This document shows positions 23,880-30,632 of a stretch of 55,787 bases of DNA, in pieces. The notes below the pieces were generated by a model that worked only from the letters and a program-made list of their open reading frames with translations, ran no database searches and was not told the DNA's origin. The stretch spans positions 1 to 55,787 of the forward strand of contig NZ_JAKEDR010000002.1 in assembly GCF_023653455.1 (NCBI RefSeq), in the 5' to 3' direction. The position numbers and the translations under genes are program-made. How positions within the stretch are numbered: the stretch's first letter is position 1; each line of letters begins with the position of its first letter. Origin of the DNA: Paraclostridium ghonii (lineage in GTDB: Bacteria; Bacillota; Clostridia; Peptostreptococcales; Peptostreptococcaceae).

Positions 23880-24839
23880 TTATCCTCCAACTTGATACAT
23901 TTTTTTAGTTATATTACTTTTGTCATGCTCATTTAACGTATGCTCTTTTGGCTTATTTTTTATAATATATTTTAAATAATTTTCTAATTTTTCTTCATTA
24001 TCTAAATAAGGGTTTATATCTATTTCTTCTTTTGAGTATAAGCATAATTTTATATTCCCAGATGATATAACCCTTATCTTATTACAGTTTGTACAAAAAG
24101 AGCAGCTCATCGGCGTTATTATACCTACCCTTCCTTTTGCTCCTTTAATTTTGTAATATGTAGCTACACTTTCTTCATCACTTTTGTCTCTTCCTAATTC
24201 TTTGACAGAAGCTATTCTATCCTTTAAATTTACATATCCATTATCAAATAGTTTTGCTCCTTCCCCTATTGGCATTAGCTCTATAAACCTTACATCTATA
24301 TTGTAATCTTTAGTTATAGATATAAAGTTATTTAATTCATCACTATTCATCCCTTCTATAAAAACACAATTTAGTTTAGTCTTTATATTTAATTTTAAAC
24401 ATTCTCTAATACCTTTTATTACATCTCCAAACTTATCTTCCTTAGTTATTTTTTTATACCTTTCTCTATCTAATGTATCTAAACTTATATTTACAGAACT
24501 AAGCCCTAACTCTTTTAATCTTTTAATTCTATACTTTAAACCCACACCATTAGTAGTTATAGATACTGTTGGTATTTTACATACCTTAGAAGTATACTCT
24601 ATAATCTCTTCTAAGTTAGGATATTGAAGGGGTTCTCCACCTGTGAATCTTATTTTTGATATTCCTATTTTTGAAAAAGCTTTTATCAATTTTTTATACT
24701 CATCTAAGCTCATAAATTGATTCTCATCATATCTTTTTATATCAATTCCTTGAGGAGCACAATATATACACCTTAAATTACATCTTTCTGTTAATGAGAT
24801 TCGTGCATAATCAATTTTTCTATTATAATTGTCTATCAT
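23880..24839 (-). CDS. moaA: GTP 3',8-cyclase MoaA
   Basis: A 319-residue radical SAM enzyme for the first step of molybdopterin (here probably tungstopterin) synthesis. The SAM cluster cysteines are C20, C24 and C27 (RCNLRCIYC). FTGGEP follows near 64-69. The second cluster is formed by CSFCTNC and the later Cys in NIKLCLY. The C-terminal Gly-Gly (YQVGG) required by MoaA is present. It is the last gene of the tungsten cluster. No MoaC, MoaE or MoeA gene is in the window, so these must lie elsewhere. Confidence 0.92.
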   Translation of the reverse strand: MIDNYNRKIDYARISLTERCNLRCIYCAPQGIDIKRYDENQFMSLDEYKKLIKAFSKIGISKIRFTGGEPLQYPNLEEIIEYTSKVCKIPTVSITTNGVGLKYRIKRLKELGLSSVNISLDTLDRERYKKITKEDKFGDVIKGIRECLKLNIKTKLNCVFIEGMNSDELNNFISITKDYNIDVRFIELMPIGEGAKLFDNGYVNLKDRIASVKELGRDKSDEESVATYYKIKGAKGRVGIITPMSCSFCTNCNKIRVISSGNIKLCLYSKEEIDINPYLDNEEKLENYLKYIIKNKPKEHTLNEHDKSNITKKMYQVGG

Positions 24840-24996: not shown

Positions 24997-26826
24997 TTAG
25001 TGAGTAGTATTTAAAGTTCCTATATACTCTTCTAAGCCTAGTTTTTTAAGCGTTTCATCTGTTGGTACTCCATTTTCATCCCAACCTCTTAAGCTGTAAT
25101 ACTCTGGTAATAAAACATCTAATTTATGAACATGCCCTTTTGTTGGTCCTTTTGAAATAGGGTCCTCTAATAATCTCTTTGGTAAAGTATCATCGCTCTT
25201 ATTTATTCCTGCTCTTAAATTAAATATTTTCTCAAGAGTCCATATTCTATCTCCAGCTTCCAATAAAGTTTCTGGCGTATATATATCTCCACAAACTGAA
25301 TTGTATATATCTACAAAGTCCTGTAACCCAAGTCCAAATGTTGTAAATACACAAATTCCCATAGAATCTATAACTGCCGTTAAATCATGGAATAATTTTG
25401 CATATGCTGGTTTTCCTTCTAATTCTAATCTATCTAGTTTTTCAGGAACTCCTAATATTTCAGGATTTATCATATATCCTTTTACATGGCACCCGCCTCT
25501 ATTGTTTACTGCGTAAGTTATACCTTGACCTTGGATACCCCTTGGGTCATAAGCTGGTAACTCTTGTTTCTTTACTGTCATAGAGTACTCTGTTGCATTA
25601 TAGATTTCACATAATCTGTATGAACCAAGTGCTAATTTGTCACCAAAGCCTTCTCTTTTCCCCATTTTTCTAGTCCACTCAACCATAGCATGGGCATCTC
25701 CCCAATTTAAAGATAATCCGTCTGCTTCTATTTCTTCATCTTTTATATACCCTCTTTGGTACAACTCCATAGCTGCGGCTATTGTTGCACCAGCAGAAAT
25801 AGTATCTAATCCATATTCATTGCAAAGCATATTAGCTTCATTTATAGCATCTAAATCATATATATCACAGTCTGATCCAAATGACCATAAAGTTTCATAT
25901 TCTGGTCCTCCACACTCTTTCCCACTCTTTAACTTTACCCATCTACCACAAGCTATTGGACATCTATAACAAGGATTCTTTCTTATTAATGTATTTTCTG
26001 TCATAGCCTCTCCACTTATTAAATCTGCATTATCTGTATATGCTTCTTGGAAATTCCTAACTGGATGTACCCCATTTTCATTTATTATATTGACAAGTAT
26101 AGCTGTTCCATAAGTAGGTAAGCCTTGTCCTGCTACAGGGTCATTTCTTAATATTTTAAGCTTCTCTGCACTTACCTTTTTAACTAAGTCGGCATCTGCC
26201 AAATTTACTTTATTGCTTCCTTTTACTACTATCGCCTTTAAGTTTTTAGACCCAAGTACAGCTCCTACTCCTCCTCTTCCTGCTGCTCTATCCACATCAT
26301 TCATAACTGCAGATATTGGAGATAATTTTTCTCCTGCCGGACCTATGCAAAGTACTTTAGATCCTTTATGTTCTTCTTGAAGTTTTTCAGTTACTTCTTC
26401 TGATAGCATTCCCCAGTAATTGCTTGCATCTTTTATTTCAATTTTATCATCTTCTATATAAATATATACTGGATTTTCTGATTTACCCTCTAATATGACC
26501 ATGTCATATCCAGCATTTTTTAATTTTACTCCCCATTGTCCTCCTGAGTTTGATATAGCTATCGTTCCTGTTAATGGTGATTTTGTAACTACCATATATC
26601 TACCACTTGTTGGAACGGGAGCTGCTGTAACTGCACCTGTTGCTATTATAAATTTATTTTCTTCACTTAACGGATCTATCTTTGGATTGACTTCATCCAT
26701 GTAAACTTTTACACCTAGACCTCTTGCACCAATATATTTTTGGGCTAAATCTAAATCTAAATCTTCAACATCCACCTTTTGATTTGTTAAGTTAATTCTT
26801 AAAACTTTTCCATTGTATCCAAACAT
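24997..26826 (-). CDS. aor: tungsten-containing aldehyde:ferredoxin oxidoreductase
   Basis: A 609-residue enzyme that oxidises aldehydes to carboxylic acids with ferredoxin, or the reverse, through a bis-tungstopterin. It has the family opening GYNGKVLRINLT, cluster cysteines in PCYRCPIACGR (CxxCxxxC) and a distant Cys in DSMGICVF, giving the four [4Fe-4S] ligands. Pterin-binding segments such as GRGGVGAVLGSKNLKAI are present. Length matches the family (~605). AGGAGG lies 8 nt before the ATG. Its leader contains a candidate Moco/tungsten-cofactor riboswitch. In amino-acid fermenters it handles aldehydes derived from 2-oxo acids. Confidence 0.92.
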   Translation of the reverse strand: MFGYNGKVLRINLTNQKVDVEDLDLDLAQKYIGARGLGVKVYMDEVNPKIDPLSEENKFIIATGAVTAAPVPTSGRYMVVTKSPLTGTIAISNSGGQWGVKLKNAGYDMVILEGKSENPVYIYIEDDKIEIKDASNYWGMLSEEVTEKLQEEHKGSKVLCIGPAGEKLSPISAVMNDVDRAAGRGGVGAVLGSKNLKAIVVKGSNKVNLADADLVKKVSAEKLKILRNDPVAGQGLPTYGTAILVNIINENGVHPVRNFQEAYTDNADLISGEAMTENTLIRKNPCYRCPIACGRWVKLKSGKECGGPEYETLWSFGSDCDIYDLDAINEANMLCNEYGLDTISAGATIAAAMELYQRGYIKDEEIEADGLSLNWGDAHAMVEWTRKMGKREGFGDKLALGSYRLCEIYNATEYSMTVKKQELPAYDPRGIQGQGITYAVNNRGGCHVKGYMINPEILGVPEKLDRLELEGKPAYAKLFHDLTAVIDSMGICVFTTFGLGLQDFVDIYNSVCGDIYTPETLLEAGDRIWTLEKIFNLRAGINKSDDTLPKRLLEDPISKGPTKGHVHKLDVLLPEYYSLRGWDENGVPTDETLKKLGLEEYIGTLNTTH

Positions 26827-26850
26827 AACATTTTCCTCCTTATTTTTTTA

Positions 26851-26947
26851 ATTCACTCCTTTCCATAGGGAGGCATAAGCATTTCTACTTATACCCTAAC
26901 GTTTTACATACCATGGCAACGCTTTAGGTATTGTAAAATCGGAGAAT
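26851..26947 (-). promoter_or_regulatory. candidate Moco/tungsten-cofactor riboswitch
   Basis: On the minus strand, ATTCTCC (26947-26941) can pair with GGAG...GAAT (26859-26851) to close a domain. Inside are TTTTACaATACC/GGTATGTAAAA, ATAAG/CTTAT, and CCTAA..CGTT able to pair with AACGTTAGG. The 3' part GCCTCCCTATGGAAAGGAG (26874-26856) resembles what I recall of the conserved end of the Moco RNA motif. It ends ~10 nt before the ribosome binding site of the tungsten oxidoreductase gene. Tungsten-cofactor sensing is inferred from context. A covariance-model search with RF01055 would decide. Confidence 0.6.
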
Positions 26948-27014
26948 TTCATTCAATTGTAGTATTATATTATAAACAATATAATACTTATTGTGTTTAT
27001 ATATCAATACCTTT

Positions 27015-27698
27015 TCATTTCCCAATATTTACAATGTTATACTCATTAAAAAGTAAATCAACTAAAAGCATCTTATTCCTTAATATATCACCTTTATTTA
27101 GTAATACCTTTATAGCCTCACTCACTTGTATTGATGCAATAGTAGCCGGAGTAAAAGATGGATTTCCAAGTTTATTCTCTAATTCTGAATTCTTATTTTT
27201 ATAAATATAGTTTAGAGTGTCATCCCCTGGAAAAATAGTAGTTGCCTGACCAAACCACCCACCTATAGCTCCATGAATCAAAGGAATATTTATTTCTTTA
27301 CAAACTTTTTGCAATATAAATCTTCCCTTAATATTATCTAATGCGTCTATTATAACATCATGCCCATATAATATTTCTTGAGCATTATCTTCTGTTAGTA
27401 AATCAACAATTGAGTTTATATATACTTGTGAGTTTACTAAATTCATTCTATTCTTTGCTTTTAATGCTTTTTTTTGCCCTAAACTAACTTCATCACAAAG
27501 TATTTGCCTATTTAAATTTGTTTCTTCAAATACATCTCCATCCACACAAGTGATATACCCTATCCCAAGCCTTCCAAGCATTTCAATTATATGTCCTCCC
27601 AGACCTCCACATCCTATTACACACACCTTGAAATTTTTTAGTTTTTCATTTTCTTCAATACTCAATGATTTCATATTTCTTAAGTATCTATTTTTCAT
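27015..27698 (-). CDS. ThiF/MoeB/HesA-family adenylyltransferase
   Basis: A 227-residue E1-like enzyme that adenylates the C-terminal glycine of a ubiquitin-like sulfur carrier. The nucleotide motif is VIGCGGLGGHIIEMLGRLG, with VDGDVFEETNLNRQ following. The CxxC zinc pairs and rhodanese domain of some relatives are missing, so it is the short form. The start at 27696-27698 is set by GGAGG 5 nt upstream; the longer frame would run into the carrier gene. It directly follows the MoaD-like carrier gene, its obvious partner in making molybdopterin dithiolene sulfur. Confidence 0.87.
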   Translation of the reverse strand: MKNRYLRNMKSLSIEENEKLKNFKVCVIGCGGLGGHIIEMLGRLGIGYITCVDGDVFEETNLNRQILCDEVSLGQKKALKAKNRMNLVNSQVYINSIVDLLTEDNAQEILYGHDVIIDALDNIKGRFILQKVCKEINIPLIHGAIGGWFGQATTIFPGDDTLNYIYKNKNSELENKLGNPSFTPATIASIQVSEAIKVLLNKGDILRNKMLLVDLLFNEYNIVNIGK

Positions 27699-27699
27699 T

Positions 27700-27924
27700 T
27701 TAACCTCCTCCAACAGGTGGAAATATAGATAAAACATCTTCATCTTTTAATCTTCTATCAAAACTACCATCCATACCATTAAGAAGTAATATAGCAACCT
27801 CTTCTTTATCTATACTCAACATATCTAACACCTGAAAAATAGTGGTTTCTTCTTTTAATTGAAGTATTTGCTTTTTTTCTCTACCTTCCCTAAAGGTAGC
27901 AAACAACCTTATTTCTATTTTCAT
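27700..27924 (-). CDS. MoaD/ThiS-type ubiquitin-like sulfur carrier
   Basis: A 74-residue beta-grasp protein ending in PPVGGG. The terminal Gly-Gly carries the thiocarboxylate. It starts MKIEIRLFATFREGREKKQ, close to MoaD (RLFATFREG). Its stop lies 1 nt before the start of its adenylyltransferase. It is probably the small subunit of molybdopterin synthase or a tungstopterin-specific version; no MoaE is nearby. Confidence 0.87.
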   Translation of the reverse strand: MKIEIRLFATFREGREKKQILQLKEETTIFQVLDMLSIDKEEVAILLLNGMDGSFDRRLKDEDVLSIFPPVGGG

Positions 27925-27992: not shown

Positions 27993-28850
27993 TTATTTAA
28001 ATGTAAAAAATAATGGTTCTCCATATTTATCAACACCATATTCTTTTATTTTATTTTGAACTTTTTCACTTTGATAATATTTTATAAGTTTATCTGTTAT
28101 ATCTTTAGTTTCTTTAGGTAAATCAGATATTGATATCATGCTATACACATTTTTTAAAGATTCATCTTTATCTATTACTATTTCTAAATCTGAGTTTTCT
28201 TTTTTAGTAGCTAAGTAAGTTCCAATATCAGTTAGTGTATATGCTTGCATCTCATTAGCCATTGTCAATGTTGCTCCCATACCTTTTCCTGATTCCTTGT
28301 AATTATCAAACTTATTTTCTTCACCTGATAACTTCCACAATGATAACTCTTTTGAATTTGTGCCAGACTTATCTCCTCTAGATACAAATGGTAGGTTATT
28401 TTCTTTTATGTATTTAAGTGCATCCGTTGTATTCATTTCCTTTATCTTTTTAGAATGTTCATCATCCTTTGGTCCTACTAAAACAAAGTAATTATACATT
28501 ATCTCAAATCTATCAGTTCCATATCCTTCTTTTATAAATTCTTCTTCTTTTTTCTTATCATGCACAAATAATATATCTGCATCCTTGCGCTTTCCTAATT
28601 CTAAAGCTTCCCCAGTCCCCTTTGCAATAACTTGTATATCTACATTATTTTCTTTTTCAAAATCTGCTAATGTATCCTTTAAAAAACCTGTGTCATCTAA
28701 ACTTGTAGTAGTAACTAACTTTAATTTGCTAGGCTTATTAGCTTCTCCTTTTGATTTTTCAGCTTCACTTGGCTTACTTGAAGAACATGCTACCATACTA
28801 AGTGATAATCCTGCAATAAGTAGTAAACTTAAGCTTTTTTTAAAATTCAT
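27993..28850 (-). CDS. tupA: tungstate-binding lipoprotein TupA
   Basis: A 285-residue extracellular binding protein. A signal peptide ends with a lipobox before C22 (SMVACSSSK). The sequence KLVTTTSLDDTGFLKDTLADF holds the TTTS oxyanion motif that separates TupA from ModA. KDADILFVHDKKKEEEFI and SRGDKSGTNSKELSLW are also typical. It lies immediately before the sulfur-carrier genes and after the transporter genes, in the unusual order tupB-tupC-tupA. Confidence 0.9.
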   Translation of the reverse strand: MNFKKSLSLLLIAGLSLSMVACSSSKPSEAEKSKGEANKPSKLKLVTTTSLDDTGFLKDTLADFEKENNVDIQVIAKGTGEALELGKRKDADILFVHDKKKEEEFIKEGYGTDRFEIMYNYFVLVGPKDDEHSKKIKEMNTTDALKYIKENNLPFVSRGDKSGTNSKELSLWKLSGEENKFDNYKESGKGMGATLTMANEMQAYTLTDIGTYLATKKENSDLEIVIDKDESLKNVYSMISISDLPKETKDITDKLIKYYQSEKVQNKIKEYGVDKYGEPLFFTFK

Positions 28851-29058: not shown

Positions 29059-29727
29059 TTAGAGAATGTATTTTTCGAAAAACTTTTTATTCTCATACGT
29101 TCCTATAAGATTTAAATTTTCCATAAATACTATAAAATCACTTATTCTTTTTGCTTGCATAAAATCATGTGTAATAAGAATAACCGTCTTTCCTTTTTCT
29201 TTAAGTTCTATAAGCTTTTTTTCTACTTGTTTTATTGTTTTAAAATCCATATTTGCCATTGGTTCATCAAATATATTGAAATCTTTATTTAGTATTAAAG
29301 TTCTTATAAACTGTGCTTTAGCCTGTTCACCACCTGATAATTTTCTTATATTTGTATCCAACCTATCTTCTAACTTAAAATCTTTTATTAATTTAATTAA
29401 TTTATCTTTATCTAGTAAGTTTTCACTTTTGCTATTTTGGTATACATAATCTAAATTTTCTCTAAGTGTTCCAGATAAAAACATAGCTCTTTGAGGATTA
29501 TATGCTATGTATTTATGTATAATCTCTTCACTAAAGCCTTCATCATTTATATTTATACTACCCTCATCAAAATCAGTTATATTGTAAATTATTTTAGTTA
29601 ATGTACTTTTTCCACTTCCATTATGACCTAAAATTGAATATATATATCCTTGTTTAAACTCTATCAGATCTATTTTAAGAGGTTCTTGAAACTTTATTTC
29701 TTTAATAAGATTTTCTATTACAATCAT
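29059..29727 (-). CDS. tupC: tungstate ABC transporter ATP-binding protein TupC
   Basis: A 222-residue ABC ATPase with Walker A GHNGSGKST, a signature LSGGEQAKAQFIRTL and Walker B FNIFDEPMANMD, where the usual LLLDEP is altered to NIFDEP. The H-loop lies in ILITHDF. It is short and lacks a C-terminal regulatory domain, as is usual for TupC. It begins 14 nt after tupB. Confidence 0.87.
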   Translation of the reverse strand: MIVIENLIKEIKFQEPLKIDLIEFKQGYIYSILGHNGSGKSTLTKIIYNITDFDEGSININDEGFSEEIIHKYIAYNPQRAMFLSGTLRENLDYVYQNSKSENLLDKDKLIKLIKDFKLEDRLDTNIRKLSGGEQAKAQFIRTLILNKDFNIFDEPMANMDFKTIKQVEKKLIELKEKGKTVILITHDFMQAKRISDFIVFMENLNLIGTYENKKFFEKYIL

Positions 29728-29740
29728 ATATTAATCCCCT

Positions 29741-30394
29741 TTAGTCATATATTTTTAATCTTTTTATCATAAATGTACATAAAAATGATATTGTAAGAAG
29801 TATGCCAGCCATTATTAAAGATTCATCAAAATTACCCATTGATGTAGATAAAGAAATATAAGTTGTCATAACTCTTGTAGATCCTCTTATGTTTCCTCCT
29901 ACAAGCATAACTGCTCCAACTTCAGATATACCTCTTCCAAATATAGCTATTATTACTGTTATAAGATGGTTTCTTATCTCTCTTAAAAAAATCTTTATAG
30001 TTTGTATTTTTCTTACCTGTAATATCTTACAGGTAAGAAAAATATCATCTCCGAATTTATCTAATGCATCTAATATGAGACTCATAGCCATTGGTATTAG
30101 CAACATAGTCTGAGCTATTATCATAGCAGTTGGTGTAAATAAAAGCTCGAAACTCCCTAATGGACCTTTTCTTGAAAGTATTAAATAAACTAAAAGTCCC
30201 ATTACTACAGGAGGTGTACTCATCAATGCATTGATTACTGTTATAAATTGTTTTTTAAATCTAAAATCTTTTAAATATACAATTACACTAGTTATGCATG
30301 CAATTATTCCTGCTATTATTGTAGCTATTGTTGTCACTAACAGTGATAAAGTCACTATTTCCACTACTTCAGAAATTTGAATTTCTATTATCAT
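29741..30394 (-). CDS. tupB: tungstate ABC transporter permease TupB
   Basis: A 217-residue permease with five to six membrane segments and the short inner-membrane permease signature around GRGISEVGAVMLVGGNIRG. The ATG at 30392-30394 is chosen; GAGG lies only 2 nt before it, and a longer TTG-started form (30412) has no better site. A perfect 16-bp inverted repeat lies inside the gene at 30007-30042 and encodes part of the cytoplasmic loop (FLTCKILQVRKIQT), where relatives carry a LGA-type motif. It is the first gene of the tungsten cluster. Confidence 0.85.
   Translation of the reverse strand: MIIEIQISEVVEIVTLSLLVTTIATIIAGIIACITSVIVYLKDFRFKKQFITVINALMSTPPVVMGLLVYLILSRKGPLGSFELLFTPTAMIIAQTMLLIPMAMSLILDALDKFGDDIFLTCKILQVRKIQTIKIFLREIRNHLITVIIAIFGRGISEVGAVMLVGGNIRGSTRVMTTYISLSTSMGNFDESLIMAGILLTISFLCTFMIKRLKIYD
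30007..30042. repeat. perfect 16-bp inverted repeat inside tupB
   Basis: TTTTTCTTACCTGTAA and TTACAGGTAAGAAAAA are exact reverse complements separated by TATC. The structure is terminator-like on either strand yet lies within the coding region. Confidence 0.9.
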
Positions 30395-30632
30395 CACCTC
30401 TTTTAATAACAATCTTCATAAAGCTTTACTTTTATTTTTTCATTACTTATGTTTATAGATACTATCTTTTCCATAATTATCTCATCATTTAAATTTAATA
30501 ATTCTATTTATATAGTAATATACATAACGTCAATCCCTATATTTCCTTCTTTTTTTATATTATTCTACATTTTTCTACATAATCCTTTATGTATTTATAA
30601 TTATTTATATGTATTTAATTTAACAATAAAAA

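Follow-up and report, generated by a model that had tools for sequence, protein, structure and literature searches.

A P3-less RF01055 RNA in the leader of a tungsten aldehyde ferredoxin oxidoreductase gene of Paraclostridium ghonii, a predicted translational ON switch

The window, by which we mean the whole 55,787-nucleotide stretch of Paraclostridium ghonii DNA analysed here, carries on its minus strand, in this order, genes for a TupB-like permease, an ATPase, a TupA-like protein, a MoaD/ThiS-like protein and a ThiF/MoeB-like protein, then a structured RNA, the gene for an aldehyde ferredoxin oxidoreductase (AOR) and moaA (Table 1). The RNA sits in the leader of a gene of the Mo/W cofactor, with the AOR ATG at 26826 and moaA following. 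The initial annotation, made from the DNA letters, had described the neighbours as tungsten genes, which agrees with the protein matches; the ThiF/MoeB-like gene is an addition to its list. The TupA-like and TupB-like proteins both scored under the NCBIfam equivalog cut-offs. Directly 5' of the RNA lies an inverted repeat (26961-26988) with perfect 11-bp arms 6 nt apart, which overlaps a promoter-like -10, occurs once in the window and is a possible operator or 5' RNA hairpin. Elsewhere in the window, a T-box leader (RF00230) was matched on the plus strand at 2634-2844 with 140 bits.

Table 1. Features of the RNA and of the surrounding genes (SD, Shine-Dalgarno sequence; CM, covariance model; MFE, minimum free energy)
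Feature	Position	Strand	Basis
RF01055 aptamer, P3-less form	26840..26956	-	cmscan
P1 5' strand UUCUCC, alternative SD partner (predicted anti-SD)	26941..26946	-	MFE pairing with GGAGGA; sequence
CUCC of the P1 5' strand	26944-26941	-	pairs with GGAG 26859-26856 in P1
P2 with tetraloop-receptor bulge (CCUAA/AUGG); strands 26938-26927 and 26912-26902	26902..26938	-	CM alignment, sequence
P2-P4 junction CGTTA, 5 nt, site where P3 would be	26897..26901	-	CM alignment
P4 hairpin, GAAA tetraloop 26885-26882	26871..26896	-	CM alignment, sequence
P1 3' strand GGAG, inside GGAAAGGAG (26864-26856)	26856..26859	-	CM alignment
SD AAGGAGG of AOR, 8 nt 5' of the ATG (26826), outside P1	26835..26841	-	sequence
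Tungsten aldehyde ferredoxin oxidoreductase (AOR), 609 aa	24997..26826	-	PF02730/PF01314; PDB relatives including 1aor and 9g7j
moaA (GTP 3',8-cyclase), next gene after AOR	23880..24839	-	TIGR02666, 333 bits, cut-off 284
ThiF/MoeB-like adenylyltransferase, upstream of the RNA	27015..27743	-	PF00899; below NCBIfam cut-offs
MoaD/ThiS-like sulfur carrier, upstream	27700..27924	-	PF02597; below NCBIfam cut-offs
TupA-like tungstate-binding protein	27993..28850	-	TupA model 206 bits, under cut-off 400; best PDB relative 3lr1, a tungstate-binding protein
ABC ATPase (TupC position)	29059..29727	-	PF00005
TupB-like ABC permease	29741..30412	-	PF00528; TupB model 123 bits, under cut-off 320

When the whole window was searched with Rfam cmscan, RF01055 (Moco/Tuco RNA) matched the minus strand at 26956-26840 with a score of 71 bits (gathering cut-off, 36) and an E-value of 3.4e-15, and the alignment covered the whole model (positions 1-135). 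The initial annotation had placed a candidate of the Moco motif at 26841-26960, correct within a few bases, and the letters that it quoted, GCCTCCC...GGAAAGGAG, are present, with GGAAAGGAG at 26864-26856. Membership of the motif, for which it had proposed a covariance search with a check for P3, was confirmed by a score above the curated threshold over the full model. The model's P3 columns are deleted in the window RNA and the P2-P4 junction is reduced to five nucleotides, indicating that P3 is absent, while the GAAA tetraloop of P4 and the tetraloop receptor in P2 are retained. Compared with 200 dinucleotide shuffles, the leader from 26956 to 26820 had a better fold than every one (z -2.79). 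With this aptamer the known RF01055 class gains a further member, of the already known P3-less variant. Stem conservation in orthologous leaders, the other point on which the annotation had staked its proposal, was seen in the three AOR rows that lie closest on the tree (L076, L077 and L184), all of which carry a P3-less RNA, two of them (L076 and L077) having come from the RNA search itself. The RNA match was absent from the next nearest AOR rows, L166 and L191.

At E <= 1, the 3.53 Mb genome gave one RF01055 match, the window aptamer, and AOR is likewise a single-copy gene (one PF01314 match). The tungsten transport and use genes of the host include the TupA-like gene and AOR. Among six genomes of the genus, one of which is 75% complete, AOR was present in this one only, and RF01055 was found in none of the other five; thus, in the sampled genus, RNA and enzyme co-occur or are both absent. 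The idea of a tungsten-only host was rejected, as the genome has two PF00384, two PF02738 (xanthine-dehydrogenase-type) and three MoeA_N matches. One of the two PF00384 matches contains an in-frame TGA, presumably as in selenocysteine formate dehydrogenases. The locus had been called a strong test case for tungsten sensing, a description that these molybdopterin enzymes of the PF00384 and xanthine-dehydrogenase types weaken.

Searches for RF01055 covered 60 relatives, of which 25 had a match (47 match rows, with loci for all 47), and 391 genomes of the class, of which 54 had a match (129 match rows, with loci from 118). Left out of the 129 rows were nine of 33-44 bits, one truncated by a contig end and G139:C7 (64.5 bits). 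One 1.6 Mb genome of the order (G059) held ten RF01055 matches (L010, L026, L058-L060, L062-L064, L066 and L072). The covariance model was built from P3-bearing RNAs and the Rfam consensus, so that P3-less RNAs show as deletions; MAFFT alignments that mixed the two forms misplaced the P2 and P3 strands and were not used. On those loci, the model gave 157 RNAs (154 distinct), among which the length of the P2-P4 junction was bimodal, 2-6 nt in 139 and at least 16 nt in 18. Two of the latter assignments (L107 and L156) were changed by eye from P3-bearing to P3-less, which leaves 16 with P3, including the doubtful L024, which is short and without a conserved P4. The AOR protein search returned at least 586 relatives, and the best 80 were kept. 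The RNA was found at 25 of these 80 loci, with junctions of 3-5 nt in all 25, and the RNA match was absent at the other 55; when 14 of the 80 were searched with the Rfam model itself, one (L184) matched. Since L196 duplicates L147, the distinct leaders number 178, of which 38 precede AOR (14 reached via the RNA, including that of the window, and 24 via AOR).

P3 was absent from all 38 AOR leaders and all 34 TupA leaders, and present in 3/9 TupB, 6/12 MoeA and 2/5 MoaA distinct leaders. For AOR leaders against all others (0/38 vs 16/140), the Fisher p value was 0.025. P3-less RNAs also lead 11 sulfite-oxidase-like and four XDH-like genes. Three P3-bearing RNAs (L032, L035 and L050) lead tupB-like importers, contrary to a simple rule that P3 means molybdenum, and the genome of L032 also holds a P3-less, ON-type ferredoxin-AOR leader (L157). 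These counts extend the correlation of Regulski et al., as given in the available text of PMC2408646, and add exceptions to it.

Beyond P3, 23 AOR leaders formed a group with a reduced aptamer (L142, L147, L150, L152, L154-L157, L190, L194, L195, L204, L206, L210, L211, L216, L218, L224, L225, L231, L233, L235 and L237). By a crude pattern, the P2 tetraloop receptor was missing from 21/23 of this group, from 1/15 of the other AOR leaders and from 23/140 of the remaining leaders; the GAAA loop was missing from 14/23 of the group. Five RNAs of the group were viewed in full, and in all five CCUGCC or CCGGCC...GCAAAG replaces CCUCCC...GGAAAG, which looks like a compensatory change in P5.

The Moco RNA motif goes back to Regulski 2008 (PMC2408646) and to Weinberg 2007 as cited therein. 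According to the available part of PMC2408646, P3-less RNAs were proposed in 2008 as sensors of the tungsten cofactor; they make up 58 of 176 RNAs, and 17 of 19 organisms with such RNAs have tungsten genes. The same text reports that deletion of P3 in E. coli abolished regulation and did not switch specificity, and that the instability of the cofactor precludes the usual binding assays, the ligand of the class still being inferred. For the window RNA, we infer sensing of the tungsten cofactor and state it with reserve, since the link between P3 loss and Tuco is a correlation, the E. coli deletion did not switch specificity, and three of nine tupB-leading RNAs have P3.

To predict the direction of control, the leader was folded together with its SD. 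The initial annotation had described a closed multi-stem fold; the multi-stem aptamer holds, as matched by the covariance model, but once the SD is included, the minimum-energy structure leaves its closing stem P1 unformed, and the P1 5' strand UUCUCC is then predicted to pair with the SD letters GGAGGA instead. In the ligand-free ensemble, the pairing of the 5' P1 strand with the SD had a probability of 0.96-0.98, vs 0.004-0.005 for P1. Forcing P1, a state that costs 3.5 kcal/mol, left the SD mostly unpaired, with an accessibility of 0.90, compared with 0.30 when P1 was forbidden, and accessibility was higher with P1 in all 18 combinations of temperature and transcript end. With 33 nt of coding sequence, the pairing of the 5' P1 strand with the SD fell to 0.15-0.39 and the free SD was already 0.53-0.63 open; with 63 nt, the pairing was 0.43-0.95. 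Thus, the predicted direction is stable across settings, and the strength of the pairing varies with transcript length. These folding models take no account of ligand, tertiary contacts or co-transcriptional kinetics. In addition, CUCC is conserved as part of the aptamer itself and is complementary to any SD, which means that some of this pairing is to be expected anyway.

No nucleotide of the SD lies inside P1 in the window, where the SD begins 18 nt downstream of the first base of the P1 3' strand, and no intrinsic terminator was found between the aptamer and the start codon in the window leader. As the SD is outside P1 and is freed when P1 is forced, the prediction is that ligand turns expression ON, the reverse of E. 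coli moaA. The initial annotation was silent on direction; the modelled layout argues for ON. In the mechanism that we propose, the P3-less RNA would, without ligand, pair UUCUCC of its P1 5' strand with GGAGGA of the AOR SD and block translation. With ligand, P1 would close, CUCC pairing with GGAG (26859-26856), and the SD, beginning 14 nt downstream, would be released. AOR would then be produced when its own cofactor is available. The presence of moaA, a supply gene, after AOR in the same unit counts against such ON control of a gene that uses the cofactor. We put at about an even chance the reading of the window RNA as a P3-less RF01055 riboswitch, most likely sensing the tungsten cofactor, that acts as a translational ON switch of AOR.

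The same question was put to each distinct leader by a terminator test, in which the probability of the terminator base with P1 forced was compared with that with P1 forbidden, and a leader was called ON or OFF if the ratio exceeded 10^0.5 either way. Among the 38 AOR leaders, there were 23 ON calls, one OFF call (L167, a hairpin within the coding region), four insensitive leaders (L073, L076, L077 and L184) and ten without a terminator. Nine leaders were treated as translational (that of the window, L167, L169, L171, L172, L179, L186, L198 and L217; for L198 and L217, an upstream start was taken), and in all nine the SD was predicted to be more open with P1, marginally so in L169 (0.62 vs 0.56). 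When both tests were combined, 32 of the 38 were predicted ON at equilibrium, three were ON-like only in truncated transcripts, and three were undetermined (L073, L206 and L210). In L179 (L179:3355-3500), the anti-SD extends beyond the conserved CUCC: the whole 9-nt 5' strand of P1, UCCACUUCC, is able to base-pair with GGAGUGUGGA across the SD. By these predictions, L179 offers a clear-cut test of translational ON control.

The 5' arm of the terminator was built from the P1 3' strand in 22/27 AOR leaders with a terminator (the in-gene hairpin of L167 being excluded), in 5/64 supply leaders and in 6/49 others; the Fisher p value of 6e-12 for AOR vs supply is uncorrected for shared ancestry. In many AOR leaders, the overlap of the terminator with GGAG runs via G-U pairs with the U tract, and strict overlap was clearest in L190, L194, L195, L224 and L237. 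In the three closest relatives, L076, L077 and L184, the full-length terminator (-22 to -25 kcal/mol, beginning 38-56 nt beyond the first base of the P1 3' strand) forms with or without P1 at equilibrium. In one or two of three truncated transcripts of each, the P1 state gave a long-range helix expected to hold back the terminator, and an anti-P1 hairpin formed in the P1-free state. Of 300 mononucleotide shuffles, 10 (L184), 13 (L076) and 35 (L077) equalled or exceeded this complementarity, and the ON-likeness of these truncated transcripts is suggestive only. A proposal that the outer P1 pairs covary was rejected: positions 3-7 pair in 76/110 (0.69), compared with 0.63 on average and 0.71 at most after swapping. 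On a quick tree of 93 AOR rows (L173, L073 and L124 form long branches, L150 is omitted and L196, the duplicate of L147, is labelled undetermined), the terminator-type leaders need 10 changes, at least seven of them forced by supported branches, and the SD type needs four; both forms are scattered over several separate parts. The AOR leaders share ancestry, and the p values here take no account of it.

Whether the window RNA lowers rather than raises expression has to be weighed against these results. In such an arrangement, as in E. coli moaA, a ligand-closed P1 ending 14 nt before the SD would hinder 30S binding and yield less AOR and MoaA. The E. coli member, tested in vivo, is OFF in the available text of PMC2408646, the AOR unit includes the biosynthetic gene moaA, and in TupA/FecCD leaders whose SD is nearby, it falls within P1. 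We nevertheless judge OFF control unlikely here, considering that the window has no SD base in P1, that accessibility is predicted to rise with P1 in every setting, and that the sole OFF call among AOR leaders rests on a coding-region hairpin. Less probable still, and in our view rather improbable, is that a real aptamer keeps a decayed expression platform, the terminator of its closest relatives having been lost with little effect remaining: L076, L077 and L184 do have a strong terminator and the window has none, but the aptamer retains its conserved elements and its 71 bits, SD competition is predicted in the window, and terminator-less translational forms recur elsewhere in the AOR tree.

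The identity of the ligand is a separate matter. That the same RNA responds to the molybdenum cofactor, to both metal forms or to a metal-free pterin precursor would fit the PF00384, PF02738 and MoeA_N matches of the host, the P3-less RNAs before XDH-like and sulfite-oxidase-like genes, the three P3-bearing RNAs before tupB, and the available text of PMC10845959, in which the exact ligand of the class is not identified. Weighed against the absence of P3 from every distinct AOR and TupA leader, and against the E. coli P3-bearing RNA, which in the available part of PMC2408646 was not repressed by tungstate, such a ligand seems to us doubtful, about as much so as OFF control. The tungsten cofactor remains the ligand that we prefer.

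Supply leaders (n = 78) comprised those of TupA, TupB, ModA/WtpA, MoeA, MoaA, MoaC and FecCD units, and the terminator test called 4 ON, 13 OFF and 47 insensitive, with 14 lacking a terminator. In five terminator-less supply leaders with the SD adjoining the aptamer (L047, L092, L100, L108 and L140), 4-5 SD bases lie inside P1; SD accessibilities with and without P1 were 0.31/0.30, 0.34/0.35, 0.41/0.54, 0.25/0.60 and 0.33/0.41, respectively, clearly lower with P1 in three (L100, L108 and L140). Because 47 of the 78 are insensitive in the model, OFF control of supply is weakly shown. Eight genomes of the 391-genome class set have an AOR leader, and in all eight that leader was predicted ON (this table is without the AOR leaders of the 60-relative set, L025, L073, L076 and L077). 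Their ten supply leaders included one ON (L040, tupB), one OFF (L085), seven insensitive and one terminator-less (L102); two further leaders in one of these genomes, neither AOR nor supply (L038 and L086), were both ON. The other leaders (n = 62) gave 8 ON and 14 OFF calls, the remainder being insensitive or terminator-less. The notion that all cofactor users are ON was rejected, as Suox-like, NuoE, hydrogenase and XDH units were mixed, with OFF commoner. In these models, ON control of users is limited to AOR leaders.

What seems to be new is the predicted ON wiring, common to most AOR leaders that carry the RNA. In the literature searched, which excluded most subscription papers and all preprints, we recognised no paper on an AOR-leader riboswitch or an ON form of the class, and the terms 'ON switch' and 'antiterminator' are absent from the available text of PMC2408646. 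More generally, tungsten-AOR leaders of Bacillota, Synergistota and Cloacimonadota may carry P3-less RF01055 ON switches that work by at least two routes, through which the cofactor would turn on its enzyme, with transporter and synthesis leaders, where resolved, leaning OFF; we hold this to be as plausible as its opposite. In one route P1 would compete with a terminator; in the other, the one predicted for the window, the P1 5' strand would serve as an anti-Shine-Dalgarno. So far, correlation is the basis of the tungsten variant, and an AOR leader whose signal is predicted to go up with tungstate would be a cleaner test than moaA repression. If the ON model is true, tungsten but not molybdate should raise reporter expression, and the rise should depend on the pterin pathway. 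A user gene turned on by its own cofactor would mean that one aptamer class is wired in both directions.

Adenine ON riboswitches of the pbuE (ydhL) type share the P1 3' strand with the 5' arm of a terminator, and the ligand prevents termination. The terminator-type AOR relatives resemble them, as their P1 3' strand is part of the terminator 5' arm; the window differs, having another aptamer and using the SD with no terminator. The torCAD operon of E. coli is activated by bis-MGD, a logic like that of the AOR ON model with an unrelated leader. With the RF01055 Moco motif, the window RNA shares the full-length match, P1, the P2 receptor, the P4 GAAA loop, P5 and a place in the leader of a cofactor-dependent gene, but it has no P3 and its SD is outside P1. 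Like the proposed Tuco variants, it lacks P3 and stands alongside genes of tungsten transport, MPT synthesis and a tungstoenzyme; those variants carry no stated output direction in the available text of PMC2408646, whereas the window RNA is predicted to be ON. The Moco RNA of E. coli moaA belongs to the same aptamer family and likewise exerts translational control, with transcription termination also inferred there in the available part of PMC12121620. Its ribosome binding site lies within P1 and the switch is OFF, as given in the available part of PMC2408646, whereas the SD in the window lies beyond P1 and is predicted to be paired by the 5' P1 strand when that strand is free, with ON as the predicted direction.
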